64,000 nt of DNA from Gautieria morchelliformis (taxonomy: Eukaryota; Basidiomycota; Agaricomycetes; Gomphales; Gomphaceae), in contig WHVA01000001.1 of NCBI GenBank assembly GCA_015179125.1, forward strand, positions 666,390-730,389. The letters are read 5' to 3'. The translations under genes were made by a program, and so were the position numbers. Position 1 is the stretch's first letter. Every line of letters starts with the position of its first letter. Below, piece after piece: positions 10,251 through 50,195 of the stretch. Under the pieces are notes generated by a model. It saw only the letters and a program-made list of their open reading frames with translations, was not told the DNA's origin and did not search any database.

Positions 10251-11640
10251 ACGCATGAACCCTGACAGGTATCCACCACTTCACCATGGTGTACCATTCT
10301 AGTTTTATGGACATTTCCTCACGGAAGTGTTCAGGACACTTGGGTAGTCGATACCACATGCGTTTGTTGGGATCAATGAGATTGGTCTCGTGATTCACCT
10401 CCCATAAGGGAGGGAGTTCTAACAGGATACCGCCAACAAGGTCGGCGATTTTGTCCATCCATTCCTCGCTTGCGCGAGGGATGTCATCATCCGTGAGGAT
10501 GATGGTAGTGGTTTGGGTAGCCATCAAGTGCCATGTGTGTCTGTTAGGACCCCCGGCACTCGGCGGCTTTTTTCTTTTTTCTAGCACTTTCATCCTGAGA
10601 TGACAGCATCTCTCCCTGCATGTGTAGGGAGAGGTTGGGGACGAGTCGCAAGACTCATCCTCCTGGCTTCAATTGGCCATGGTGAGCATGGGCCCCAAGG
10701 TGATTCTACTCACCTTTGGATCTGCGCCTCCCTTCGATGACTTTTTGTCATTGAAGATTACTTTTCCTGTGGGGATGGTTTCATTCCCCACACGGATCGT
10801 CCCTGTTACTCCTAGTTTCCTTAGGAACGGAGTGCCTAAGATAGCGTTGTAATACTCGATGTTTGCTACGTCGAAGTATTCTTCAACTGTTTCACGACCA
10901 AATTTAATGGTCATGTTCATCCCGTAGTTGATCATTGATTGACTACCGATGCACGCCAATTGCAGGGCAATTGGCTGTTCCAAGGCAAATGTTTTGATGC
11001 CTGTGGCATGGGTGAATTTGGGGGATAATAATACCCCTTCGCTCCCGCTGTCTAGTAGGCAGTGGGCCTTCATGCCGTTGATCTCCCAGTACCCCGACAG
11101 GGTACAGTTCTCACTACATGGCCATGCAGGCCGTGTGTGGTGTTTGCTCCGGTGGTGATACATTGGTTCAGATGCCTTGTCTGGGGCCATCATTCGAGCA
11201 GCCATGACTTTGGCTGTCTCGTCTACCGGCACGATTCTAACCACACTGGATCGGTAGGCAATCTGATTGTCTGCCATGTCCTCATCCCAATCATAGTATT
11301 GGGACGGCTCTGGCTCCCAAGCCTCTGTCGGCTCGCCGTTCCTATCCTGATCCTCAGTTTCCTGAGGGTCACCCTCCCCCTCTTCAATCTCTTGAAGAGA
11401 GGTGTCGATGGGGTCCTCAATAACCTGTAAGGATAGACTATACGAAGTTCTACTCAGAGTTTGCACGAAGGTGTCAAACCACTGATATAATCACCTATAT
11501 GTAGTTCTACTGCATACAGGTGAGCAAGAGACAATACATGAGAACTAATTGATTTACCTCAGCATTTTCACAAAGGTGTCAAACCACTGAGGAAGAAACG
11601 ATGCAAACTAGCTATACTAAGATTTGCATTAAGAGAATAA
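10250..11640 (-). mobile_element. Element D: Gypsy-like retroelement fragment (protease and pre-RT)
   Basis: On the minus strand the frame from 11466 to 10669 starts with an acidic stretch. It then has a retropepsin-like domain with HCLLDSGSEGVLLSPKF (about 11030-11080) and AILGTPFLRKLGV (about 10795-10835). After a stop, the frame 10593-10250 holds the segment between protease and RT (TDDDIPRASEEWMDKIADL, RYRLPKC-like WYRLPKCPEHF). It is cut after KWWIPVRVHA, where the probable B LTR begins; the RT proper must lie beyond B, outside the window. An 18-base word is repeated upstream at 11468-11485 and 11573-11590, possibly a local duplication in the gag region. D differs in sequence from A and B, so three Gypsy lineages are stacked here. 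Confidence 0.75.
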
Positions 11641-34079: not shown

Positions 34080-35882
34080 GGTAAATGCTGCTTGCTCCTT
34101 TTCCTCCTTCTCACCTCCGCATCACACTCCTCGCATACCCACCGCGTCTGCTCCAACGTCATCCCCAGCCCCATCCTCCGCTCCACGCCCTCCTCCCGCT
34201 CCATTACCACCTTTCACATTGTCCTGGCGCTGTCCCCGTCCCACCCGCCCCACGAATGCCTGGTGCCGCCCCCACTCCCACTGGCGACCGCGCCGCCCCC
34301 ACTCGCACTCGTGTGCGCGCCCCCGCCACTTCTCGCGACGGCGCCGCCGCCGCGCCGACTCCCCCCCGTGTCTATACGCCCATAGCCGACGCCCGCCCCG
34401 TACCCGGGCACTGCCGGCAAATGGGCATCGAGCATCACCCCGGGGACCGTGCCCGGCGCGGTGTTCGGCGCGCCAGGCATGTCGGCCGGCGGCCCCTGCG
34501 CCGGCGAACCTGCCCCGGGTGCTGGTCTGCTGCTGTTGCATTGGGGTTGCGGTGGCGGATGGTGGCGGAGGGGTTGGTGACGATGGCGGAGGGGTTGGTC
34601 GCGGTGGGGTTAGGGAAAGGGACGGGGGCTAGCGGCCATTCGTGTGTGGGCAGCGTGCCCGTGTAGGGCTGTTCGGACATCGCTGCGTCCGTCGGCATGT
34701 GCAATCGCATCGCGTCAAAATGCCAGGCGGTGGGGGCGTCGGGGCCAGTGTACCCCACATAATAATCATGGCGCTGCTGCGGCTGGGCATACCCGCTTGT
34801 GTCCATGGCAGACCCCGGGGCGGACGGACGAGCCTCTGCGCTCGTTCTCAGCCAGTCAACATCCTGACTGGTGCCCATGGGCCACGCAGACCCCGGCGCG
34901 GCACTCATGGTTGCACCCCAGCCATCGTCGCCCGCGCTGCCATACGGCGACGGCGAACGCGGAGACGTGACGCCCTCAGGTGGCGACCCAGCGGGAACAC
35001 CATGCGTCCCCCACCCGACGTGATAGAACTGATCCTGTGCAGAAGCCGGTTCAGGGCCCGACCCAGATGTAGATGCAAAGGCAGGCATGGCACCCGGCCG
35101 CGACCAGGGAAATGGTGTGTCCTGGATGGGAACCTGGCGGGGGTATATAGGCATGGGGGCAATGGGCGTCGGCATTCGAACATAGGTGACTTGTATGCGC
35201 ATGATTTCGGTCTCGGCGTTGGTGGGATCTGGGGTGGGGAAGGCGCGTCAGTTGGGGTGAAAAGATGGAAGCGGCGCGGTGCACAAGAAAGGCGGAAAGC
35301 AGAAAAAATGAGGGAGAAATGATGGGGGGAGACGTGGCAGCCGCCAGCGTTGGAGAGATGGAAAGCAGGAGATGGGAATGGGAAAGGACACGTACATTGT
35401 GCCCCAGGCGCAGGAGCGCCATCTGGCATATGACTGGTGCTCTCCAAGGCAAGATTTGTGAGGCATTCAGGGCAGTCGAGGGAAAGGAAGTTGTCGGGAC
35501 CCATGTCCAGGACAGCGCCCTGTGGGGGTGGGGCATATATGTGAGGCGTGTCGGCGTGCGCATCGACTGTTGGAGTGTGGCTGGGCCCCGACGGCCCCTC
35601 ACCCGTATCGGCATCGTCCTTGTTGTCCACCGCGGGGTCGGCGGGCATGTACCCCTGCTCTGTGTGGAGGGCAGTCGTGTCGATGCCACCGGGGTCTAAC
35701 CCGGGGGGTGGCGGCGACGGAGGATGGTCAGTTGCGGGTCCTGGGGACAGATTCAGCACGCGCCACACGGATTTTGCGAAGATGGAAAGGGACGTACCCT
35801 GAGGCATATTGTCCGCGAAGGGATCAGTGTATTGGATGGCGAGCCAGGGTGGCAAGTGTGTGGGAGGGCGGGTTGGAGACAT
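34080..35882 (-). pseudogene. Proline-rich protein gene of the block repeat, copy 1
   Basis: Exon 1 is 35882-35798 (MSPTRPPTHLPPW, then SIQYTDPFADN-like residues), exon 2 is 35740-35396 (Pro/Asp-rich, ending near a CPEC motif and GAPAPGAQ) and exon 3 starts at 35228 (NAETEIMRIQVTYVRMPTP). Both introns have GT..AG ends and the phases fit. Exon 3 runs through MSEQPYTGTLPTHEWPL and then shifts frame near 34480-34540 relative to copy 2. A distal C-x2-C segment (WVCEECDAEV, about 34115-34145) follows, after which the sequence is cut at the block end. Length up to the break is about 450 residues. The family is not recognised. It may be a host gene spread by duplication or a passenger of a mobile element. 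Confidence 0.55.
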
Positions 35883-37690
35883 GCCACCTGAGGAAAAGAG
35901 CAGTGGATGGGATTGTGGACATGGGGGGGATTAAATAGTAGTGGATGTAACAATGTGGGACTCCGACGTCTTCGAACAAGCTTATGTTTCGCCCACCACG
36001 CTCCGGGACGACGGGAATCCAAATATACAAACGAGCGCTCCGTCGACAGGGTCTTAGGCACCATTCAGCGAATATCTAAAATTACCCAGTTGGCTTGGTG
36101 CCTCAGGCCTCGGGGCTGCTGCTTCGATGGGTGGGCAGCGCCACCCTTCTGCTGAGGCTTCTTGCACTTTTTGACTTGACACCCACGTGCGTTTCAGAGA
36201 CATGTCATGTAATTCCTAGTACAATACCTTCCCCCCGATCTGGGTCTCATGCCGGGCTCCAGGCGCAGGTCTCTGCGTCTGCGTCTGAGCCCAGGCCATG
36301 TGGCTTGTGTAGCCATCTGCCAGTCCAGGCTCGTGCCCACCGCAGTCTGACCCCCCGCCACAGCGAGGTGACGACCCTGAATCCGCTGAGGCGAGAGTGA
36401 TGAACGTATGATGCCAGGATCATGTGGATCTGCCACGGCAAGGGAAAGGCGTTGGGAAGTACCCAATAAGTGCCCAGTAAACAAGGGTGATTGTGACAAC
36501 GAAAACGAGGCAGCGTACTGCATACCAGAATTGTGGGAGTGTGGAAAATGATAAATGAAGCGGAGAAGGCGCTAGCACTTGAATGCCGGGTTGCCCGATG
36601 CGTGCAAAAAATATTGAAATGGAAAACCACAATCACTGTCCGCAGCTTGCGTTAGAGCGAGAAGGGCACGGTGGCACGTGTTAGCCGGCGTTTCAGCTCA
36701 GATGCTACGCGAGCTCAGCCCCCACAGTCGGTATCAGTATGCGTTCCCCGCGCCGTCGGACGTCGTCCCACGGCGGATGGCCCCCATGCCCCATGCAGAT
36801 CAGATCGACGTCCAGCCTGCGACACCATGATATGCTCACGATCACGGGGACTCGTTTTCCACAGTCTAAACACAGTCCCCGCCATCGTCGCGCACGATAT
36901 CGATAGCCGAACATACCGTCGGAGCTCAAATCACACTCTTCCATCAAACAGGAAGTGGAAGGATTAATATCCATGACCCAAACTTGTCCTCCAGGGCTCG
37001 CTCCACAATTGCTCGCAGATTGTGCTGAGTGTTTTACAGTACAGACCATCCCGGAGCCCCTCACACACTCGCTGCTCCTCCATTCACCACAATTAATCCT
37101 CGATCGCGCTGCTCGCGACGCATGTGAAACACGATCGGGGTCTACCTACCACGCCTGCGACGAGATCACTGTTTACCACGAGGAACGGGGAGCACCATCG
37201 AGATATCGGCGTCGACGGCGTGCATGTCCATGTGTCCGCCAATTCGACGCTGTCATCCACGACTCTGCCTATTACCACAGCAATCCCGCCGACAACCCAG
37301 CCTGAGTCACGCCTGCAAATTTTCCCACCAATCCCCTTTCCAAGCCTGAGCGTCGCGCACCACCCGCCGCATCCCGAGGCATACTCATGCTTATCTGTGG
37401 ACCGTGCGCAGACGCACCAATACGGGCCTCGCGCTGCGGCTGCATGGACGAGGACACCCTGCCCTCATGATGCGCCATGCACAGATGCTTCGGGCAGCGT
37501 ACGACTAGCTCCGCACTGATGCCACCGTACAAGACTACAAGACCGTCGCATCCGCGGGACGCAGCGTCCAAGCTCACGGATGACATCCCCAACGCCATAC
37601 TCTACCTTCCCATGGTGTGGAAGCCCTCACAGCTCTGGCAACAGATCACGCACCCACCCCATGCCCCGTGCGCCATGGCCCCTCGCCCAG
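35883..37690. repeat. Spacer part of block copy 1
   Basis: Upstream region of the copy 1 gene and further block DNA, matched by 44391-45788 in copy 2 and 51000-52860 in copy 3. No protein domain is seen; plus- and minus-strand frames here differ between copies in frame and length, arguing against coding. Confidence 0.6.
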
Positions 37691-39070
37691 ACCCACCCAT
37701 ACTCGTGCCAAAGACTACGGGTGCGCTACCTAAAATGCGAACCGCCGTCCCCATCAGTCCGTCATCGCACATACATACATCCATGTGCCATGTGCAGCTC
37801 AAATCCACCGCACCTGTACCAGGCCTCGAATGTCGTCAAAATTTCTCCGATGTGGTAAGTAATCTTCATTACTGTAATCCCGCTTCTGTTGCACGAACTC
37901 ATAATACTCTGCCAGTGTCCTTCAATTCACGTTTATCCCTGTCAGTCACTGTAATGCTGGTTTTTTTATAGCGTGTCGTTCTCAGGCGCCAACGGGTTCA
38001 TTTAAACGTTTCCATCAGCATTGCATGCATCACTGCAGCTTCTGCTCACGATGCACATGAAACGCATACGAAAGCCTGAGCGTCGCGCACCACAGCAAGC
38101 TCGATCTCATACGTACATGACCCGCGCTGCCGCTGCCGCTGCGTGGGCGAGGACGGCCTGCGACGGCCTACGATGCCCCGTGCACACACACGCCTCTGGG
38201 ATGTGCTTTCGGTCTGCGCCGCGCAGGCCTGAAGCGCAGCCAGACACTCCGGACGGTGTACGAGCCCTCACCAACCCTACCGTACAACACCCGCGGGCCG
38301 CGTCGTCCAAGCTCGTGGATGTCCTCCCCCAGCCATGCTCTACCCTCCCATAGTGTTGAAGTCCTCACAGCTCTGGCAACAGATCATGCACCCACCCCGT
38401 GCTTCGTGCGCCGTGCCCATGGCCCAGACCCGCCCATACTCGCGCCAAAGACCACAGGTGCGCTACTTAAAATGGAGCCACCGTCCCCGTCAGTCCGTCA
38501 CCACAGACACATGCATCCATGTGCCATGTGCAGCTCAACCACTCCACCGGGTCTCGACTCTCGTCAAAGCGTCTCCGATATGGTAGGTAACCTTCATTAC
38601 TGTAATCTCCCTTCTGTTGCACGAACTCACAATACACTGCCAGTGCCCCCAATTCAAGACAGTTAATGCTGGTGTTGAAAGGGCATCCACCTCGGAGGCC
38701 GGGAGTTCATTTAACACATTTCCATCAGCGGTGCATGCATCACTGCAGTTTCTGTTCACGATGCGCATGAAACGTGGATGAGGGCTCCTGTGTTTCAAGC
38801 CTACATAGCCAGCGGTGCATGCAGCGCCCTGTGTCGGTATGGAACCACCGTCCCCGTCGGCCCGTCACTGCACACACATGCATCCATGTGCCATGTGCAG
38901 CTCGAATCCACCGCACCTGCACCTGCACTGGGCCTCGACTCTGGTCAAAAATTCTCCGATGTGGTAAGTAACCTTCATTACTGTAATCCCGCTTCTGTTC
39001 CACGAACTTATAATACTCTGCCAGTGCCCTTCAATTCACGTTTGTCACTGGTAGTCAATGCTGGTTAGTA
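37691..39070 (+). repeat. Tandem units with intron-like segments, copy 1
   Basis: Three units share an ACCGTCCCC..GTCAGTCCGTC start, a CATCCATGTGCCATGTGCAG stretch and then a segment that looks like an intron. That segment starts GTAAGT (GTAGGT in one) and ends CTCTGCCAG (CACTGCCAG in one), about 61 bp long, at 37855-37915, 38583-38643 and 38964-39024. Further units occur at 49020, 49388 and 53393. The flanking sequence has no conserved frame. Confidence 0.7.
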
Positions 39071-40880
39071 AAGAGCGTGGATCCTTACCATCCTTCCATC
39101 ACTGTTGCACCACTGCAGCTTCTGCTCGCGATGCGCTTTAAACGCGGACGAGGGCTCCTGTGTTTCAAGCCTGCGTAGCCAGCTGTGCATGCAGCGCCCT
39201 TTCGGACCCCAAATTATATGCAGACAAGTCACTTGCACGTAAGAGGTCTGACATGCGGGACCAAGGACATGCTCGATGGGGTTAATCTCCGGGCTCCACG
39301 AGGAACAGGTAGCACCATCGAGATATCGACCCTGCGTCTATAGCAACGCCGTGCATGTGCATGTGTCCGCCCATTTGACGCTGCCTCCCATGTTTGTCGA
39401 CTGTTCTGCATATTATCACAGCACGCCTGAGGATGCTCAAGCCTGGAAATCCCTCTCGTAAATCGACACCACCACCGTGGACGTCATGACAAGGGACACG
39501 CATGCACCGGCCGCATTCCAGAGGCATTCCAAGGCATACCTATTCATGCGTGCAACCCGCGCGGAACATTACGCCTGACGCCGATTCCACACTACACAAG
39601 CACAATCGCTACCGCCTGGTCCAAGTCCTTATAATGCCACGGTTCACTCGCCTCCACTGTCCATCCGCCTGTCTCGCAGCTTCATCCACGGAATATATAG
39701 ACCTACTCTCGACAGCCGACACGCCCTCAGCCTGCGACGCATGGCCTTCTTTCCCTGTGCATGATATGCAGCGGCATGGCGATGTCCGTGTCCGAAAACG
39801 CCCACACATTGGTGTCTGTCTGTAAATGGCCTTCGGGACTTGCGTGCGTCTGGGACCGTGTCTGCCAATAAATCTGTATTGCATATACGTCGAACGCGCA
39901 TCCCTCCCGTTCTGGGCGGCCCAAGCTTAGTGCACCCGTCACAGAGTCAGGCTGGTCGCTTCCCTCTAACTAGTGCCATGGGGTTGCCCCAGGCCCTGCA
40001 TGAATTACAAGTATTACCGGTACACAGATTGGTTGCAAAGGCGGCTGAGCAGCGTGGCAGCAGCCAGATGGGCCCAATGTGCACGTTTCAACGACTTCAC
40101 CGACGGCGCTGCCCCAAAATGTGCGTGGCTCAGCGTGCAGAAAACGGCCCAAAGCAGAAACGGCTCAAGAGGGATGTTTCAACCAGCCTTTTCGCGCCGT
40201 TTTTCGCCACCGTTTAGGTCCCTCGGTCCGTTCTACTAGTATCCCACCACTCGTGGATAACCCTCCCCCCCCGGATAAACCATCCACATCCACACGAGCC
40301 GATGATTTTGGAGCTGCTGGCGAGATTTTGATCAGCACTCCATTGGGGCTCGCAGTGTTTAATCCAGCTCTCCGCCAGAGTAATCCCAGCATCTCACTAT
40401 TCAGCACGACACCCAGGATCGAGCACGGCTGGCGGACCGTCCGCTCTGGCCTGTCCGCTCCCAGGACGAAATTACAGGCCACTTCCTCTCCTGGACCTTG
40501 TCATCTGTCCGGGGGTCCGCCGCGATGTAGACAAGGAAGCAATATGCCCCCGGCTACATCTCCTGGTACATATATTTCTTCACGAGCAATGCCTACTCAT
40601 TCCGCACCGAGGAGCGCCTCATCGTCTTTGGAACCAGCCGCCAGCTCGAAGCTCCGCCTGTCGTCCGCCAGAACAACCATTGGCGGGCAAAATATTTGTG
40701 CTCATTCCTTCTCACAAGGAACAGACTGCCTCGTGGTCGCCAGGGACGGCATGCTTCTGCAGCCATTTGCGGACCTGCCGTGGAGACAGTGTCTGCATAA
40801 TGGCTCGGAAATGATATATTATACGGTCAATTAACAAACGGGGATTAAGTTAGACATACCGTCTTGATGGAAGATCAATG
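39071..40880. repeat. Distal part of block copy 1
   Basis: 39225-39480 resembles 37140-37330 of the same block (an internal duplication). 39470-39640 is shared by all copies. 39700-40880 is shared with copy 3 (54130-55300) but missing from copy 2. Minus-strand frames such as 40482-40165 are not conserved in frame between the copies. No gene is called. Confidence 0.6.
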
Positions 40881-42420: not shown

Positions 42421-44390
42421 ACTTACCGCTATAAACGCGGTGAATACTGCTTGCTCCCTCTCCTCCTTGCTCACCTCCGCATCGCACTCCTCGCATACCC
42501 ACCGCATCTGCTCCAGCGTCATCCCCAACCCCATCCTCCACTCCACGCCATTCTCCCGCTCCATCACCACCTTTCAAATGGTGGTGCTGTCGTCGTCCCA
42601 CCCGCCCCACGGATGCCCGGTGCCGCCCCCACTCCCACTGGCGACTGGGCCACCCCCACTCCCACTCGCATGCGCACCGCCCCCACTCCCACCCGCGACC
42701 GCGCCGCCTCCCCTCCTGCTCGCGACGGCACTGCCGCTGCGCCGACTCCCCCACACCTCGCCCGTGTCTATACGCCTATAGCCGACGCCCGCCCCGTACC
42801 CGGGCACTGCCGACAAATATTGGCCATAGAGCATCACACCGGGGACCGTGCCCGGCTGCTGCACCGTGTTCGGCACGCTAGGCAGGTCGGCCGGCGGCCC
42901 CTGCGCCGGCGGACCTGCCCGGGGTGCTGGTCTGCTGCTGTTGCGGCCGCCGGGGGGGTCCGCATTGGGGTTGCGGTGGCAGACGGTGGTGGAGGGGTTG
43001 GTGACGGTGGCGGAGGGGTTGGTCGCAGTGGGGTTAGCGAAAGGGACGGGGACTGGCGGCCACCCGTGTGTGGGCAGCGTGCCCGTGTAGGGCTGTTCGG
43101 ACATCGCCGCGTCCGTCGGCATGGGCAGTCGCGTCGCGTCTAGCCAGGCGGTGGGGGCGGGGGTGTATTGGGCATTGGGGCGAGTGTACCCCGCATTATA
43201 ATCATAGCGCTGCTGCGGCTGGGCATACCCGCTTGTGTCCATGGCGGACCCCGGGGCGGACAGGTGGGCCTCTGCGCTCATTCTCAGCCTGGATATCGGC
43301 ATCAGCGAGCGCATCGGGTCATAATTCCGGGCGGTGGGGGCGGCGGTGTGTGGGGCCTCGAGTGTACCCTGCGGCCGCGGACATGGCCGGACCCGGGCTT
43401 GTGCTCGCACTTGCCCACTTGCCCACTTCATCGCCCGCGCGGTACGGCAACGGCGAACGCGGAAACGTGACGTACGGAGGCGGCGGCCCAGCGCGAACTC
43501 GGAGCCTCCACCGGTGGATGCGATAGGACCGCTCCAGCTGAGAAGCCGATACAGGGCCCCACACAGACCCCCATGCCAGTCCAGGCACGGCATCCGGCCG
43601 CGGGCGTGGCACGGGCAAGGGATACGGAGTATGCTGGCGCCTGATGCGGGGGGATGTAGGCACTGGGGCTATGGGCGTCGGCATTCGAGCATAGGTGGCT
43701 TGTATGCGCGCGTTTTCGGTGTTGGTGTGGGTGGGGTCTGGGGTGGGGAAGGCACGTCAGTTGGGGTGAAAAGATGGAAGCGGCGCGGTGCACAAGAAAG
43801 GCAGAAAGCAGAAAAAATGAGGGAGAAATGATGGGGGAGTCGTGGCAGCTGCCAGCGTTGGAGAGATGGAAAGCAGGAGATGGGAATGGGAAAGGACACG
43901 CACATTGTGCCCCAGGCGCAGGAGCGCCATCTGGCATATGACCGGTGCTCTTCAAGGCAAGATTTGCGAGGCATTCAGGGCAGTGGAGGGAAAGGAAGTT
44001 GTCGGGACCCATGTCCAGGACAGCGCCCTGTAGGGGTGGGGCATATATGTGAGGCGTGTCAGCGTGCGCATCGACTGTTGGAGCGTGGCTGGGCCCCGAC
44101 AGCCCCTTGCCCGTATCGGCATCGTCCTTGTTGTCCACCATGGGGTCGGCGGGCATGTACCCCTGCTCTGTGTGGAGGGCAGTCGTGTCGATGCCACCGG
44201 GGTCTAACCCGGGGGGTGGCGGCGACGGAGGATGGTCAGTTGCGGGTCCTGGGGACAGATTCAGCACGCGCCACACGGATTTTGCGAAGATGGAAAGGGA
44301 CGTACCCTGAGGCATATTGTCCGCGAAGGGATCAGTGTATTGGATGGAGAACCAGGGTGGCAAGTGTGTGGGAGGGCGCGTTGGAGACAT
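42346..44390 (-). pseudogene. Proline-rich protein gene of the block repeat, copy 2
   Basis: Same organisation as copy 1: ATG at 44390 (MSPTRPPTHLPPW), an intron after NMPQ, a second exon with the CPEC segment (about 43960-44000) and a third exon from about 43737. Exon 3 changes frame near 43600 and continues in another frame through SMDTSGYAQPQQR-like residues, MSEQPYTGTLPTHGWPP, a Gly/Ser-rich low-complexity part and DDDSTTI (about 42574). The frame 42570-42346 then gives EQMRWVCEECDAEVSKEERE followed by a GTAAGT donor. The next possible exon, PYQWKRAQGRRQTRRQPR, is in the inverted-repeat arm at about 42220-42260. The gene is therefore longer than in copy 1 but shifted in frame at least once. 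Confidence 0.55.
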
Positions 44391-45788
44391 GCCACCTGAG
44401 GAAAAGAGCAGTGGATGGGATTGTGGACATGGGGGGGATTAAATAGTAGTGGACGTAATACAATGTGGGACTCCGACGTCTTCGAACAAGCTTATGTTTT
44501 GCCCACCACGCTCCGGGACGACGGGAATCCAAATATACAACGAGCGCTCCGTCGACAGGGTCTAGGCACCATTCAGCGATTATCTAAATCACCGACTCTC
44601 TTCCTTCCAAAGTGCTACTTCAAAGGGCGTGCAGCGCCACCTTCGTGCCAAGGCTTCTTCAATCGGGGCACTTTTTGACTTGACAACCGCATGCGTTTCA
44701 GACACGCCATGGAATTTCTAGTACAATACATCCCCCCCCGATCTGGGTCTCGTGCCGGCGCTCCAGGCGCAGGTCTCTGCGTCTGCATCTGAGCCCAGGC
44801 TATGTGGCTTGCATATCCATCTGCCAGTGCCAGCTCGCCATCGCTATCTGACCGCCCGCCACAACGAGGTGACGACCCCGCTATGGCGAATCCGCTAAGC
44901 GTGATGAACGTGTGGGCCAGGATCATATGACTCTGCCACGGCAAGGGGGAGTGGTAAATAAGTGCCCGGTAAACGAGATCGATGATAGAATTGTGGAAGC
45001 GTGGCAATGATAAATGGAGCGAAGACGTGCAGCGTGGAGAGGTTTCTCGACTCGCATCTAAGAATTGTGAGAAGGCTTAAATAAAAATAGGTCGCCCAAT
45101 GCGTGGCAAAAGATATTGAAATGGAAAACCACAATCACTGTCCGCAGCTTGCGTTAGAGAGAAGAGCTCGCAGGCGCATGTTAGCCAACGTTTCAGCTCA
45201 GATGCTACGCGATCTCAGCCCCCACAGTCAGTATCAGTATGCGTTCCCCGCGCCGTCGGATGTCGTCCCGCGGTGGATGGGCCCCATGCCCCATCCAGAT
45301 CAGATGATCAGATCGATGCCCAGCCTGCAACACCACGACATGCTCACGAGCACAGGGACTCGTTTTCCACAGTCTAAACACAGTCCCCGCAATCGTCGCG
45401 GACGATATCGATAGCCGCACATACGGGCAGAGCTCAAATCACACTCTCCCATCAAACAGCAAGTGGAAGGATTAATCTCGCTCCATGACCCAAACTCGTC
45501 CTCCAGGGCTCACTCCACGTTTATCGCTATCGCTCGCAGGTTGTGCTGCTTGTTCTACAGTACAGACCATCCCGGCGATCATTTTCATCAACCCCTCACA
45601 CATTCGGTGCCCTTCCCATTCATCACAATTAATCCTCAATCACGCTGCTCGCGACGCATGTGAACCGCGATCTGGGTCTACCTACCACGCCTGCGACGAG
45701 ATCACTGTTTACCATGAGGAACAGGGAGCACCATTGAGATATCGGCGTCGACGGCGTGCATGTCCATGTGTCCGCCCATTCGACACTG
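42421..45788. repeat. Block repeat copy 2, left part
   Basis: Direct match to 34080-37260 of copy 1, about 8.5 kb apart. The match is broken at 45788, inside a word that reads CGACGCTGTC in copy 1, by the LTR-bounded element that starts at 45789, and resumes at 48395. Confidence 0.85.
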
Positions 45789-45974
45789 TGTAAAGAAGTG
45801 GATTCAGAGGGGGGGGGTCCACAAGACCCCACTGTATAGTAGTGCGTGGGAACCGCCGGCGGTTCCCCAGCTTCATCTTTACCTGTCACCGTCACTACGT
45901 AGCATCTGAATTACCACAAACTGGTTGAATTCAGCGTGCCCTTGTGATAAACAGGTATCAAGCCACTCTTGAAC
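45789..45974 (+). repeat. Left LTR of the hairpin-chain element
   Basis: Its first 95 bp are almost identical to the right LTR, with later indels. It contains a perfect 20-bp palindrome at 45848-45867 (GGGAACCGCC and its complement) and a GGGGTC..GACCCC hairpin. The right end is set approximately by alignment. Confidence 0.7.
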
Positions 45975-45977
45975 CTT

Positions 45978-46238
45978 CTGCAGTCTTTTAAAAAAAGACT
46001 GCAGTGCAGACGGCGGTTCGCCGTTGAGAACGCTGTCGCCGCGATGTTTTCATCGCGGGAATATTCCGAGTCCGAGTTGGACTCGATGATGGAGAGGAGG
46101 AAGGGACGGCTCACTCGCTGGGTGAAGGCATGCGAGATGACGCCCAGCGAGGCGTGGTTCTGGGCAGAGGCCAGTGAGGAGCGTTGGCAAAGCCTCTGCA
46201 GGGCCATGGACGAACGCGATGGCGTCCCTCTGGGACGC
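45978..46238 (+). repeat. 5' hairpin series of the LTR-bounded element
   Basis: Perfect stems in a row: 45978-45989 with 45993-46004 (12 bp), 46010-46015 with 46019-46024, 46039-46046 with 46051-46058, 46067-46073 with 46079-46085, 46114-46122 with 46143-46151 (9 bp), and 46222-46228 with 46232-46238. All were checked base by base. Loops are mostly 3-5 bases. Confidence 0.85.
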
Positions 46239-46419
46239 ATCCACGCGCCACGGCACCTCCAGCACCCTCAGGCCTTCCAGCAGCTGGCCAGACAGGTCGG
46301 CCACGCTGTGCGTGATGTGCGACGTGATGCTGCACTCATCGACGCCGCCTCCACCGCCCACACCGCGCATCCGCGCTCTAGGTTGCCCCAGGCGCACACG
46401 GACGACAGCGAATGGGAAC

Positions 46420-47253
46420 GGTGGTGCATGCTCCCTGGAGCATGCATCCACCTCTGGGGGCCCTCCAGAGGCCCCCAGAACCGGCCAAACGTCGTGAACG
46501 CCGCGCCTGGCGCCCGCGGCCATCCACCCTCGCCTGCGGCCCCAGGGGCCGCCCTGCTCGTTCCCAGCGAGTGGGAAAGGTGGTGCATGCTCCTTGGAGC
46601 ATGCATCCACCTCTGGGGCCCTCCAGAGGCCCCCAGAGTCGGCCAGACGCCGCGCCCGGCGCGCAGCGTCATCCGCGGTCGCGCGCGGCCCCAGGCGCCA
46701 TCCCGGCCGCCCTGCTCGCTCCCAGCGAGCGGGAACGGTGGTGCACGCTCTGTAGAGCGTGCATCCACCTCTGGGGACCCTCCAGAGGTCCCCAGAGCCG
46801 CCCAGATGTCGCGCACGCCACGCCCGGCACGCAACGACATCCACCCGCCCCAGAGCGCGCCCCGGCTGCCCCGCTCGTTCCCAGCGAGTGGGAATGGGGC
46901 TGCACGTCCCAAAGGACGTGCACCCACCGCTGGGAGCCCTCAAGGGGCCCCCAGAGGTCGCCAGGCGCCGCGAAAGCCGCGCCCGCAGCGCCACTCCGCC
47001 CGCCCTCGCTCGCGGCCGCATCCAGGGCCGCCCCCGTCAGCGGCGGGTGCCACGCGGCACACCGGGTCCGCAGCAGACACCCAGGCTGCTAGGGCTCCCT
47101 GCCGCGTGCCAGGGCCGGCCCACCGCCGCGTCAGCGTTCGCGCGCGGGCCCAGAGGCGGTCCCGGCCGCCCTGCTCCCTCCTGTCAAGGGGGAGGGTGCG
47201 GCACGCCCCAAGGGGCGTGCATCCGCACCTGGGGACCCACCAAAGGTCCCCAG
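46420..47253 (+). repeat. 159-bp tandem repeat with two conserved hairpins per unit
   Basis: Units start their first hairpin at 46425, 46584, 46742, 46901 and 47201 (steps 159, 158, 159, then 300). Hairpin 1 pairs: 46425-46434 with 46437-46446, 46584-46593 with 46596-46605, 46742-46751 with 46754-46763, 46901-46909 with 46914-46922, and 47201-47209 with 47212-47220. Hairpin 2 pairs: 46454-46462 with 46470-46478, 46771-46779 with 46787-46795, and 47229-47237 with 47245-47253; the second and fourth units pair with a bulge or a mismatch. Stem sequences differ between units, but both arms change together. A third short stem (46537-46543 with 46545-46551) lies between units 1 and 2. Confidence 0.85.
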
Positions 47254-47260
47254 AAGCTCC

Positions 47261-48196
47261 CGGTTGTGGCATATGTCACAACCGCCGCATTGCCGGCCCC
47301 CTGCGGAGCCACCGCCATTAGTGCGCGACAGTCCGCAGCTAACGAATGCGGTCACGACGTGGAAGACCCGTGCCGAAAGGAGCGGGACAAGCGGCGAATG
47401 CCGCCGCCAGCCGTCCCGGTCGAACAGGACGTAAGGTTCGGGAATGAACCTCAAGAGCAACCAGCTGCCCCCATGGACAGCTGCAAGATAATCCAACAGA
47501 TCATCAGAAAGTGTGCCTCTGCCTGCATCACATGCCTGGCGTGCACACAAATGCACATCCGTTGTGTCCAGGTCCATGGACACAATGCCCAGCGGCTGTA
47601 TGCAGCCGCTGGCCTGTTCGGCCATGAAGTGGTCAAGTATTGACCGCTTCGGTAATTTCATTGCATAGGGCTCCTCCGAGTCCTACGGGTGACATCATGT
47701 CACAAAGCAGTCAATTATTGACCGCTTGGTTATTCCTTGCATAGGGCCCTGCCAGGTCCTATGGCTGCATAACTGCTATCCTTCGCAGTTAGGCACCAAT
47801 GATGCCTAGATCATTGGCTGTTCAGTTCCCCACAGACATCACCTGTCTGTGGGTTTGAGAGCATTCAAGTTGTTCTCAACTGTGGGTTTCGGTTCAGAGG
47901 GGGAAGAACCATGCCCCCAAACCAACCAACCACCCACTACAACCGGGGAGTGCTGGCGAAGCCGGCACAACCACTGGTGTTCAGAATGATGAACACCAGA
48001 ACAGATGTGTTGGCACTATGCCAACACATCTGCCATGATGCCATGTCATGACATCATGCCATTCATGTCAGATCTGAGGCATCAGATCTGCGGTTATTCT
48101 GAGGTACATCAGAATGACCTGGTCCACACACCCATCCCTTTCTCAAGGTCAAAGGGGTGCTTCTTTTGGCTCACCCGGTGGGTTCCTTCTAGAAGG
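47261..48196 (+). repeat. 3' hairpin series of the LTR-bounded element
   Basis: Stems checked by eye: 47261-47268/47277-47284, 47391-47395/47400-47404, 47434-47439/47446-47451, 47562-47570/47577-47585, 47589-47598/47603-47612, 47631-47636/47640-47645, 47689-47695/47697-47703, 47770-47776/47785-47791, 47796-47803/47810-47817, 47829-47838/47844-47853, 47855-47860/47874-47879, 47950-47957/47961-47968 (one G-T pair), 47974-47983/47990-47999, 48002-48015/48019-48032 (14 bp), 48069-48076/48083-48090, 48096-48102/48109-48115 and 48185-48196 (palindrome). Most are perfect. The series has no long unpaired gap. Confidence 0.85.
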
Positions 48197-48202
48197 GGAG
48201 GG
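48191..48202 (+). promoter_or_regulatory. Polypurine tract of the hairpin-chain element
   Basis: AGAAGGGGAGGG lies immediately before the right LTR, the standard position for the plus-strand primer of LTR elements. It overlaps the palindrome CCTTCTAGAAGG (48185-48196). Confidence 0.65.
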
Positions 48203-48394
48203 TGTAAAGAAGTGGATTCAGAGGGGGGGGTCCACAAGACCCCACTGTATAGTAGTGCGTGGGAACCGCCGGCGGTTCCCCAGCTTGATCGCATCTTACT
48301 CTTACCTGTCACTACGTAGCATTCAGAATACCACTCATTGGTCAAGTTCTGCAGTGCCCTTGTGATACAAGGTCCTAAGATCAACATCTTTACA
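48203..48394 (+). repeat. Right LTR of the hairpin-chain element
   Basis: 192 bp, TGTAAAGA..TCTTTACA. It has the same 20-bp palindrome at 48261-48280. The divergence from the left LTR by several indels suggests an old insertion or a chimeric one. Confidence 0.78.
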
Positions 48395-50190
48395 CGCTGC
48401 CTATTATCACAGCAAGCCCGCAGACGACCCAGCCTGAGTCACGCTTGGAAATTTGCCCCACCACCCCCATGCCAAGCCGCCTGAGCATCGCGCACCACCC
48501 GCCGCATCCCGAGGCATACTCGTACTTATCCGTGGACCGTGCGCAGACGCACCAATACATGCCCCGCGCTGCCGCTGCGTGGGCGAGGACAGCCTGTGAT
48601 GGCCTGCAATGCCCCATGCACGCACACAGGCCTGAAGCCCAGCCATACACTCCGCGCGGTGTACGAGTCCGCACCTACGCCACGCTACAAGATTACTAGA
48701 CCGTCGCATCCGCGGGCCGCAGCGTCCAGGCTCGCGGATGTCCTCCTCCAACGCCATACTCTACCCTCCCATAGTGTCGAAGTCCTCACAGCTCTGGCAA
48801 CAGCTCACGCACCCACCGTGTTCCCTTGCGCCATGGCCCATCGCCAGGACCCGCCCATACTCGTGCCGAAGACCACGGGGTGCGCTACCTAAAATGTGCA
48901 CCACCGTCCGCGTCAGTCCGTCACCACACACACATGCAACCATGTGCCATGTTCAGCTCAAATCAGCCGCACCTGCACCTGCACCGGGCCTCGACTCTCG
49001 CCAAAAATTCTCCGATGTGGTAAGTAACCTTCATTACTGAAATCTCCTCGCTTCTGTTGCACGAACTCATAATACTCTGCCAGCGCAGCCAGACACTCGG
49101 GCGGTGTACAAGTCCGCACCGACGCCGCCACACAAGACTACAAGACCGTCGCATCCACCGGCCACAGCGTCCAAGCTCGCGGACGATACCTGGACTCACC
49201 CAGACCGTGCCCGGGACGCCATGGTCCATGTCCCTGACCCGCCCATACTCGTGCCAATAACTACGGGGAGCGCTACCTAAAATGGAACCACCGTCCCCGT
49301 CAGTCCGTCACCGCACACACATGCATCCATGTGCCATGTGCAGCTCAAATCCACCGCACCTGCACCTGCACCGGCATCTCCGATGTGGTAAGTAACCTTC
49401 ATTACTGTAATCCCGCTTCTGTTCCACGAACTTATAATACTTTGCCAGTGCCCCTCAATTCACGTTTGTCAGCGGCAGTCAATGCTGGTTATTAAAGAGC
49501 GTCGATCCTGGATGCTGGGAGTTCATTTACCATCCTTCCATCACCGTTGCATCACTGCAGCTTCGGTTCGCAATGCACATGAAACGCGGACGAGGGCCCC
49601 TGTGTTTCAAGTCTGCGTAGCCAGCTGTGCATGCAGCCCTGTATTTGGGCCCCAAATTATATGCGGACAAGTCACTTGCTCTTATGAAGCCTGACATGCG
49701 GGACCAAGGACATGCTCGACAGGATTAACCTCCGGGCTCCACGAGGAACGGGAAGCACCATCTAGATATCGGCCTCTACTCCGCTGTGTCTATTGCAACG
49801 CCATGCATGTGCATGTGTTCGCCCATTCGACGCTGTCTCTCATGCTTGTCGACTGCTCTGCTTATTATCACAACACGCCCGAGGACGCTCAAGCCTGGAA
49901 ATCCGGCCCGTAAATCGACACCACCACCGTGCACGTCATGACAAGGGACGCGCATGCACCGGCCGCATTCCAGAGGCATTCCCGAGGCATACTAATTTCA
50001 TGCGTGCAACCCGCGCGGAACGTTCCGCCCGACGCCGATTTCACACTACACAACCACAATCGCTACCGCCTGGTCCAAGTCCGTACAATTCCACGGTTCA
50101 CTCGCCTCCACTGTCCATCCGCCCGTCTCGCCGCTTCATCCACGGAAGCGCCAAGCATATATAGACCTGCTCTCGACAGCCGACACGCCC
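48395..50190. repeat. Block repeat copy 2, right part
   Basis: Resumes the match to copy 1 from 37260 onward. It contains two intron-like tandem units (GTAAGT at 49020 and 49388) and the 49690-50160 segment matching 39240-39700. It ends where an alpha-amylase fragment begins, so the distal 1.2 kb present in copies 1 and 3 is missing. Confidence 0.8.
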
Positions 50191-50195
50191 TCCCT

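Follow-up and report, generated by a model that had tools for sequence, protein, structure and literature searches.

A hairpin-rich, non-autonomous LTR-type element of Gautieria morchelliformis bears the 3′ R-U5 of a separate gag-pol family

Non-autonomous elements that have long terminal repeats (LTRs) but no pol genes include terminal-repeat retrotransposons in miniature (TRIMs), which are mostly under about 1.5 kb, and large retrotransposon derivatives (LARDs), which have a non-coding interior above about 4 kb. In the system of Du et al. (2010, Plant Cell), partners reportedly exchange LTR sequence, to go by the title. Intermolecular transfer and LTR swapping are already known. In wheat, LTR elements that are non-autonomous and are believed to rely on the proteins of a partner are reported to have conserved termini and a conserved primer-binding site (PMC11302176, PMC9744471), and the available text on Onsen of Arabidopsis describes LTR recombinants consistent with a first template switch in R (PMC5668417). 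In cell culture of human immunodeficiency virus (HIV), the first transfer is intra- or intermolecular with comparable frequency, as the excerpted account has it (PMC5651808). Here we report an element at 45789-48394 of a 64,000-nucleotide (nt) stretch of the basidiomycete Gautieria morchelliformis (contig WHVA01000001.1, positions 666,390 to 730,389, forward strand; hereafter the window). The unique 3′ (U3) parts of its two terminal repeats agree, whereas its 3′ repeat and unique 5′ part (R-U5) is that of a separate gag-pol family in the same genome, and comparison of copies argues that this end is most likely acquired anew at each transposition.

The window element is bounded by inverted ends TGTAAAGA/TCTTTACA and has the hallmarks of an LTR retrotransposon: TG...CA ends, a short target-site duplication and a polypurine tract before the 3′ LTR. 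A first-pass annotation, made by a model from the letters of the window, had given these borders together with a purine tract at 48191-48202, a 20-bp palindrome and a near-perfect 5-bp duplication, and all of them were recovered, the duplication as CACTG/CGCTG with one mismatch. It had further read the element as LTR-type without mobility genes of its own, which our results support: this is a non-autonomous, hairpin-rich element of LTR type, which must be moved by other machinery. The gag and pol genes of an autonomous Ty3-type element are lacking, as a Pfam search found no domain in the 425-residue (aa) open reading frame (ORF); the annotation's statement that there is no recognisable retroelement gene holds to that extent, but the ORF and a 179-bp piece of a foreign gag gene are present. 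Two other claims stand in part. The direct repeats match over their first ~86 bp and differ at 41 of 105 positions in the remainder, the R-U5; and the joined flanks align at 79.5% identity with an element-free paralogous block (~37.25 kb), but this empty site is not clean, with about a dozen extra bases. The parts of the element and its insertion site are as follows.

45784-45788, plus strand: left target-site duplication, CACTG (5-bp duplications with 0-1 mismatch occur in all 29 copies of subfamilies A and B, defined below, with both ends located)
45789-45867, plus strand: 5′ U3 of the terminal repeat, identical to the 3′ U3 at all 76 positions compared once the poly-G run is collapsed
45848-45867, plus strand: 20-bp palindrome closing the 5′ U3, with a second copy at 48261-48280
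45868-45982, plus strand: 5′ R-U5 specific to subfamily B, with a degenerate U5 end and primer-binding region and no TTTACA end; it departs from the 3′ R-U5 of the same element at 41 of 105 positions
45978-46004, plus strand: leader hairpin from the stem scan, stem 12 bp, loop 3 nt
46044-47321, plus strand: ORF of 425 aa (MFSSREYSES...), without Pfam domain or found homologue, its frame broken in many other copies
46414-47258, plus strand: five tandem hairpin units of two hairpins each, spacing mostly 158-159 bp
47324-47502, plus strand: helper gag gene segment, 179 bp, 89% identity to positions 1173-1351 of L054, the long helper copy described below
47560-48201, plus strand: hairpin array of the 3′ body, from the stem scan, the fold of copies, site variation and folding energy
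48191-48202, plus strand: polypurine tract AGAAGGGGAGGG, from sequence reading and alignment of copies
48203-48280, plus strand: 3′ U3 with the palindrome at 48261-48280, from alignment of the terminal repeats
48281-48287, plus strand: CAGCTTG, left over from the start of the element's own R and followed by the junction, from alignment with helper LTRs
48288-48394, plus strand: helper-type 3′ R-U5, 107 nt, with no difference from L050-L053, four of the helper LTRs sampled
48395-48399, plus strand: right target-site duplication, CGCTG, one mismatch from CACTG
37246-37266, plus strand: element-free site in the paralogous block copy, with about a dozen extra bases

The element is real and has many relatives in the genome. 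A search of the 122-Mb assembly with the window element gave 116 matches, grouped into at least 40 loci, some incomplete; this is a lower bound, because the best 40 of 2377 candidates were scored. Alignment of both terminal repeats of 28 copies revealed two subfamilies, A (2688-3601 bp) and B (2372-3167 bp), the window copy belonging to B. The polypurine tract TAGAAGGGGAGGG is found in 26 of the 28 aligned elements and as one-base variants in the other two. Target-site duplications of 5 bp flank 29 of 29 copies with both ends located (23 exact, the others with one mismatch), including all 15 such B copies (10 exact, 0-1 mismatch). A search for the exact U3 pattern in viral contigs gave no match.

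Comparison of the two ends within each copy separates the subfamilies. The A elements have ordinary LTRs, alike over their whole length in 14 of 14 cases, with 0-5 R-U5 differences between ends (mean 2.1). In none of 14 B elements is this so: the U3 parts of the same copy differ at 0-9 of 75-78 positions and the R-U5 parts at 41-48 of ~105. The U3 differences within B elements total 40, a sum as low as which none of 20,000 random re-pairings of ends reached, and the own partner's U3 is the nearest or tied for nearest in 10 of the 14. The R-U5 parts (mean difference 44.6) show no within-element pairing, as 13,251 of the 20,000 re-pairings were as low. The TTTACA-type terminus follows the same division: it is present in 28 of 28 A repeats, 18 of 18 B 3′ ends and 27 of 27 LTRs of the helper family described below, and in 0 of 24 B 5′ repeats (including that of L010, which is interrupted by an insertion; for this reason the pairing tests omit L010 and the tree below omits its 5′ end). 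Furthermore, the primer-binding region of B is degraded or partly deleted relative to helper and A. In older B copies, an altered terminus (AGTTCCA, for example) precedes an incomplete primer region, and newer ones are ~15 bp shorter there. At the end of the 5′ repeat of one old copy, L101, what used to be the LTR terminus and primer region can fold into the small hairpin AGTTCCA-CCTGT-TGGAACT.

The source of the B 3′ R-U5 is a separate gag-pol family of the same genome, here called the helper. With the window 3′ R-U5 (48288-48394) as query, the best 40 of 1299 candidates were 98-100% identical, most of them starting at the same base, and the non-B matches fetched have a different U3 (TGTAAATAACC...). 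The 3′ R-U5 of L027 and L031, used as queries in the same way (best 40 scored of 1299-1607 first-look candidates for each query), led to other helper LTR types. All 23 fetched non-B matches to these three ends, which were short stretches picked from the three lists of best 40, carry a helper U3. The terminal repeats that the first-pass annotation took for plain LTRs bounding the element are thus not ordinary LTRs, and their 3′ R-U5 belongs to another family. The helper LTR pairs in hand are 100% (L054) and 99% (L049) alike. In L054 (C228), 9112 bp lie between the outer ends of 213-bp, 100% identical LTRs; its open pieces exceed the Pfam cut-offs for a zinc knuckle, reverse transcriptase (RT), RNase H and an integrase zinc-binding domain, with protease, Ty3-capsid and gag below cut-off, and the domains stand in Ty3 order. 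Among the matches listed for its RT piece (120 of 491), one is named to species, from the polypore Meripilus lineatus (P0040), in keeping with a basidiomycete as host.

Individual B copies carry the ends of different helpers. The R-U5 of 19 of 20 B or B-like 3′ ends lies 0-7 mismatches from the nearest sampled helper LTR, with at most 3 in 12 of them. New searches with three of the four worst-matched copies (L028, L044 and L036; L074, with 12 mismatches, was left out) brought the distance from 11 to 1, from 13 to 4 and from 16 to 5, respectively; of the 12 matches fetched, 10 have a helper U3, one (L085) is B-like and one (L083) has no readable U3. The six sampled helper sets differ on average by 4.8-17.2. 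In a tree of R-U5 sequences, built from few columns and with many forks poorly supported, the B 5′ ends form one clade (100/99) and the B 3′ ends are spread among helpers; a single clade of B 3′ ends is rejected (p-AU, approximately unbiased test, 0.0006). Divergence in eight pairs of copies shows the same discordance. The window element and L027 differ at 0 of 80 and 1 of 87 U3 positions and by 2.5-3.7% in the body, and by 12.4% in the 3′ R-U5. Body and 3′ R-U5 divergence are 4.1-7.0% and 12.4% for L009/L015, 4.6-5.5% and 11.4% for L014/L027, 4.8-7.7% and 11.7% for L026/L028, 4.3-7.9% and 9.4% for L028/L031, and 4.4-9.0% and 9.4% for L028/L030. The pair L009/L012 (8.8-12.5% and 12.4%) shows no contrast with the ORF region, and L009/L014, which have the same helper type, differ by 3.0-4.8% in the body and 0.9% in the 3′ R-U5. 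Closely related B copies can therefore bear the ends of different helpers.

Tests of several different kinds thus point to acquisition of the 3′ end in trans, and on these sequence comparisons the R-U5 would most likely be taken up anew at each transposition from helper minus-strand strong-stop complementary DNA (cDNA) by intermolecular first-strand transfer. In the proposed cycle, transcription of B would begin near CAGCTT, and the RNA would be packaged together with helper RNA. Because its U5 end and primer-binding region are degraded, the B leader likely cannot give rise to a strong-stop cDNA whose end could be integrated. Instead, a strong-stop cDNA templated by the helper would anneal to the helper-type R near the 3′ terminus of the B RNA, and the minus strand would be extended through the B U3, the body and the 5′ leader. 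Plus-strand DNA primed at the polypurine tract would then anneal to the minus-strand end by way of CAGCTT and partial R homology, a step that agrees with Ty3, in which plus-strand transfer is reported to involve pairing of R and U5 sequences without preservation of the site copied from the primer (PMC5371799). The 5′ U3, which resembles the 3′ U3 of its copy, would be a copy of it. In the product, the 5′ R-U5 would be of B type and the 3′ R-U5 that of the helper, whose TTTACA terminus integrase would use. Taken as a whole, we consider it likely, if less firmly than the transfer itself, that B is an obligate strong-stop parasite, which would have abandoned its own primer site and U5 end, kept a helper-type R as a 3′ landing pad and drawn a fresh R-U5 from the RNA of whichever helper shares its particle, so that each insertion would record an active helper, with a body that would be a chain of selected hairpins.

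Several observations weigh against this reading. The 3′ R-U5 of L075, the twentieth end, fits no group, the closest helper being 31 mismatches away and the closest B 5′ end 34; the U3 of its second terminal repeat is truncated. The helper LTRs were chosen for being the closest hits to B ends, and each of the six sets takes its name from the query that found it; the average difference between the two closest sets is only 4.8, and L010 and L045 are equally near to both. In four of the 14 B elements, another element's U3 is nearer than that of the own partner. Some of the primer region survives in older B copies (L044, L101-L104), which makes the loss of priming in B presumptive. No primer transfer RNA (tRNA) was matched among the 20 of 47 listed tRNA genes compared, the best having 11-13 identical bases of 19-21. 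L054, the single long helper examined, is broken across frames. Finally, end types cluster somewhat on the body tree, most of which is poorly supported (8 changes, a number as low in 6 of 200 shuffles).

The first-pass annotation had described the element as made almost wholly of consecutive hairpins. A scan with loops of up to 40 and 60 dinucleotide shuffles as control found 24 non-overlapping perfect stems of at least 8 bp in the window element, against a shuffle mean of 1.5 and maximum of 5, and 7 of at least 10 bp against 0.2, whereas four control stretches of equal length held 1, 2, 5 and 0 stems. Stems are thus far more frequent than chance would give, and the annotation's 14-bp stem at 48002-48015/48019-48032 is confirmed. 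Two A copies have 28 and 20 stems and two B copies 12 and 23, with shuffle means of 1.7-2.6. Folding energy of the plus strand is low in eight of nine 200-nt tiles from 46389 to 48188 (z -3.5 to -7.1), but the tiles 46189-46388 and 46989-47188 are near chance (z -0.2 and -1.3), and 'almost wholly' is too strong for these. Parts of the helper L054 (3700-9212, oriented) also exceed their shuffles, with 11 and 11 perfect stems against 1.3 and 1.7.

The stems are retained in other copies, a comparison that the first-pass annotation had proposed. Across 38 sequences of the 3′ body (L025 and L048 left out), pairs of the window fold are standard in 95.5% of cells, compared with 36-40% when the fold is slid along the alignment; most stems from 47560 onward are paired in 95-100%, and those of the gag-derived piece in 78-93%. 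Within 47500-48201, variation at stem sites (0.026) is half that at other sites (0.053); in the gag-derived piece, stem sites are not less variable (0.092 versus 0.069). Double changes in the 3′ body involve 9 pairs and 18 cells in the RNAalifold structure (reached by 2 and 0 of 200 shuffles, respectively; 2-5 pairs when slid) and 18 pairs and 40 cells in the window fold (13 and 0 of 200; 3-9 pairs when slid). As these are few, covariation there is modest. In the tandem unit (175 distinct of 202 units, from 41 loci), four inner pairs have 125 compensated cells, compared with at most 65 in 200 shuffles and at most 66 when slid; RNAalifold returned only these four inner pairs, and the fuller fold was read from the unit's majority string. 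A strand bias of stem mismatches was considered as proof of RNA-level selection and set aside, since single changes in stems gave G-U 49 times and A-C 41 times, about equally; selection on plus-strand RNA is therefore not established, and conversion between arms could have produced the pattern. An Rfam scan of 45600-48600 for ribozymes and structured RNAs gave five matches, all far below gathering scores, and no ribozyme. The hairpin array looks constrained, and a role in packaging or in dimerisation with helper RNA would be a guess; the roles in packaging or RNA silencing offered by the first-pass annotation are likewise conjectural.

These hairpins also underlie the best-surviving alternative, that the chain is the main device, by which helper particles capture A and B RNAs, and the odd 3′ end is incidental. 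The stem excess over shuffles, the lower variability of stem sites, the covarying tandem hairpin and the occurrence of hairpins in every A and B copy tested all suit this idea, but with G-U and A-C states nearly equal, selection on plus-strand RNA is not demonstrated, and parts of the helper itself exceed their shuffles. Because it also leaves the ends unexplained, we regard it as possible but doubtful. Gene conversion is improbable. Abundant helper LTRs could have overwritten the B 3′ R-U5 at the DNA level after insertion, and the 1299-1607 first-look candidates per query (best 40 scored) show that helper-type donors are plentiful, but in all 19 of the 3′ ends that could be assigned the tract has the same border, even in copies whose U3s are identical (the window element and L027), and a B-type R-U5 occurs in 0 of 20 3′ ends. 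Moreover, the B 5′ U5 has no integrable terminus, so the 3′ end was likely already different at insertion. Slightly less probable still is a helper-type 3′ end fixed once in an ancestral B, for instance by reverse transcription primed at the 3′ end of B RNA, and inherited vertically. The common CAGCTTG junction before helper R (CAGGTTG in L027, CAGCTGA in L044 and L085) would fit such descent, as would the clustering of end types on the body tree (8 changes against a shuffled mean of 10.4). However, the B 3′ ends are not one clade, they include several helper subfamilies, and close copies such as the window element and L027 differ by 12.4% in the 3′ R-U5 against 2.5-3.7% in the body. Divergence within LTR pairs normally increases with age, but that ordinary LTRs merely diverged in their R-U5 halves is refuted by the contrast with U3, in which the two ends of these copies agree (no difference at 76 positions in the window element), and the element's 3′ half is identical to sampled helper LTRs, leaving this explanation virtually no weight.

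With acquisition from the helper as the preferred reading, B can be set against the described systems. It shares with TRIMs and LARDs, as generally defined, a non-autonomous nature, LTRs and the lack of pol, and differs in its hairpin array, its unequal R-U5 halves and a length (2372-3167 bp; A, 2688-3601 bp) that falls between the two. In the system of Du et al., of which the title is our only guide, LTR sequence is exchanged; in B only the 3′ R-U5 is helper-type, unlike the element's own 5′ R-U5, and its source varies by copy. Retrozymes resemble B in being non-autonomous LTR elements with structured RNA (PMC9695139). They differ by a hammerhead in the LTR, and no hammerhead was found in the scan of 45600-48600. 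The wheat partners likewise share LTR termini and a presumed reliance on a partner's proteins, but the available passages have them keeping termini and primer site, whereas B has lost its 5′ U5 terminus and its primer region is degraded. Onsen, as far as the excerpted text goes, recombines within one family, with no standing dependence of one element type, unlike B. Among the articles listed in searches of one open-access library, most subscription journals being outside its scope, we found no element that depends on intermolecular transfer or LTR swapping.

The cargo of the element comprises the ORF and the gag segment. The ORF is intact in the window copy, and a homologue search with it found none at E 0.001 among 7987 candidates. 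Over the opening 366 nt of 19 copies, that of the window among them, changes fall 178 times on codon position 3, 120 times on position 1 and 93 times on position 2. Codons with a single change are synonymous in 150 cases, non-synonymous in 174 and stop in 6, compared with 117, 236 and 16 if all possible transitions were drawn, so weak constraint on the ORF is possible. The 179-bp gag piece is matched in 34 of 40 loci (L009-L048), and not in L036 and L044-L048 (6 of the 40, some incomplete), L074 or L075; its candidacy as a universal packaging signal is weakened by these unmatched copies.

The A subfamily comprises two groups (L017-L024 and L035-L042) with the same R-U5 type and different U3s, one of them having the U3 and late 3′ body of B. 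The late 3′ body of the group L017-L024, L029 is 96.7% identical to B and 93.1% to the other A group, a sign that A and B RNAs may have recombined. The LTR-like repeats at two further loci, L097 and L098, are distinct in their R-U5 and end in an intact TTTACA-type terminus; L098 resembles a solo LTR flanked by GAATG. These loci were considered as an ancestral form of B, which was not borne out, as their R-U5 differs by 22-31 from A, B and helper alike. At B loci on C161, C287 and C267, the 5′ and 3′ parts lie ~7 kb apart, as nested insertions or longer B forms, and several relatives have ~157 extra bp, near one tandem-unit length, at element position 1531/1532 (47319/47320), which the window copy lacks. 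Around the element, several diverged block duplications (80-89%) occupy 34-55 kb of the window, for example 34925-36444 with 43428-44947 and 38839-39728 with 49282-50192. A degenerate helper-family fragment lies on the minus strand at 10268-11401 (72% to L054 2832-3992), and an open frame at 10669-11466 resembles the helper protease part.

B-type ends mislead LTR-divergence dating and LTR-pair finders, as their R-U5 parts are ~40% different while the U3 halves are identical. If the proposed transfer is correct, an LTR element can persist although its two LTRs are not copies of one sequence, a mode of replication that would be unusual for this kind of element. The requirements in cis (polypurine tract, U3 and R homology) would be separated from those supplied in trans (primer site and U5 end). 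Every insertion of B would keep a trace of which helper was active at the time, and intermolecular first-strand transfer would become readable from a genome instead of from mixed-virion experiments.

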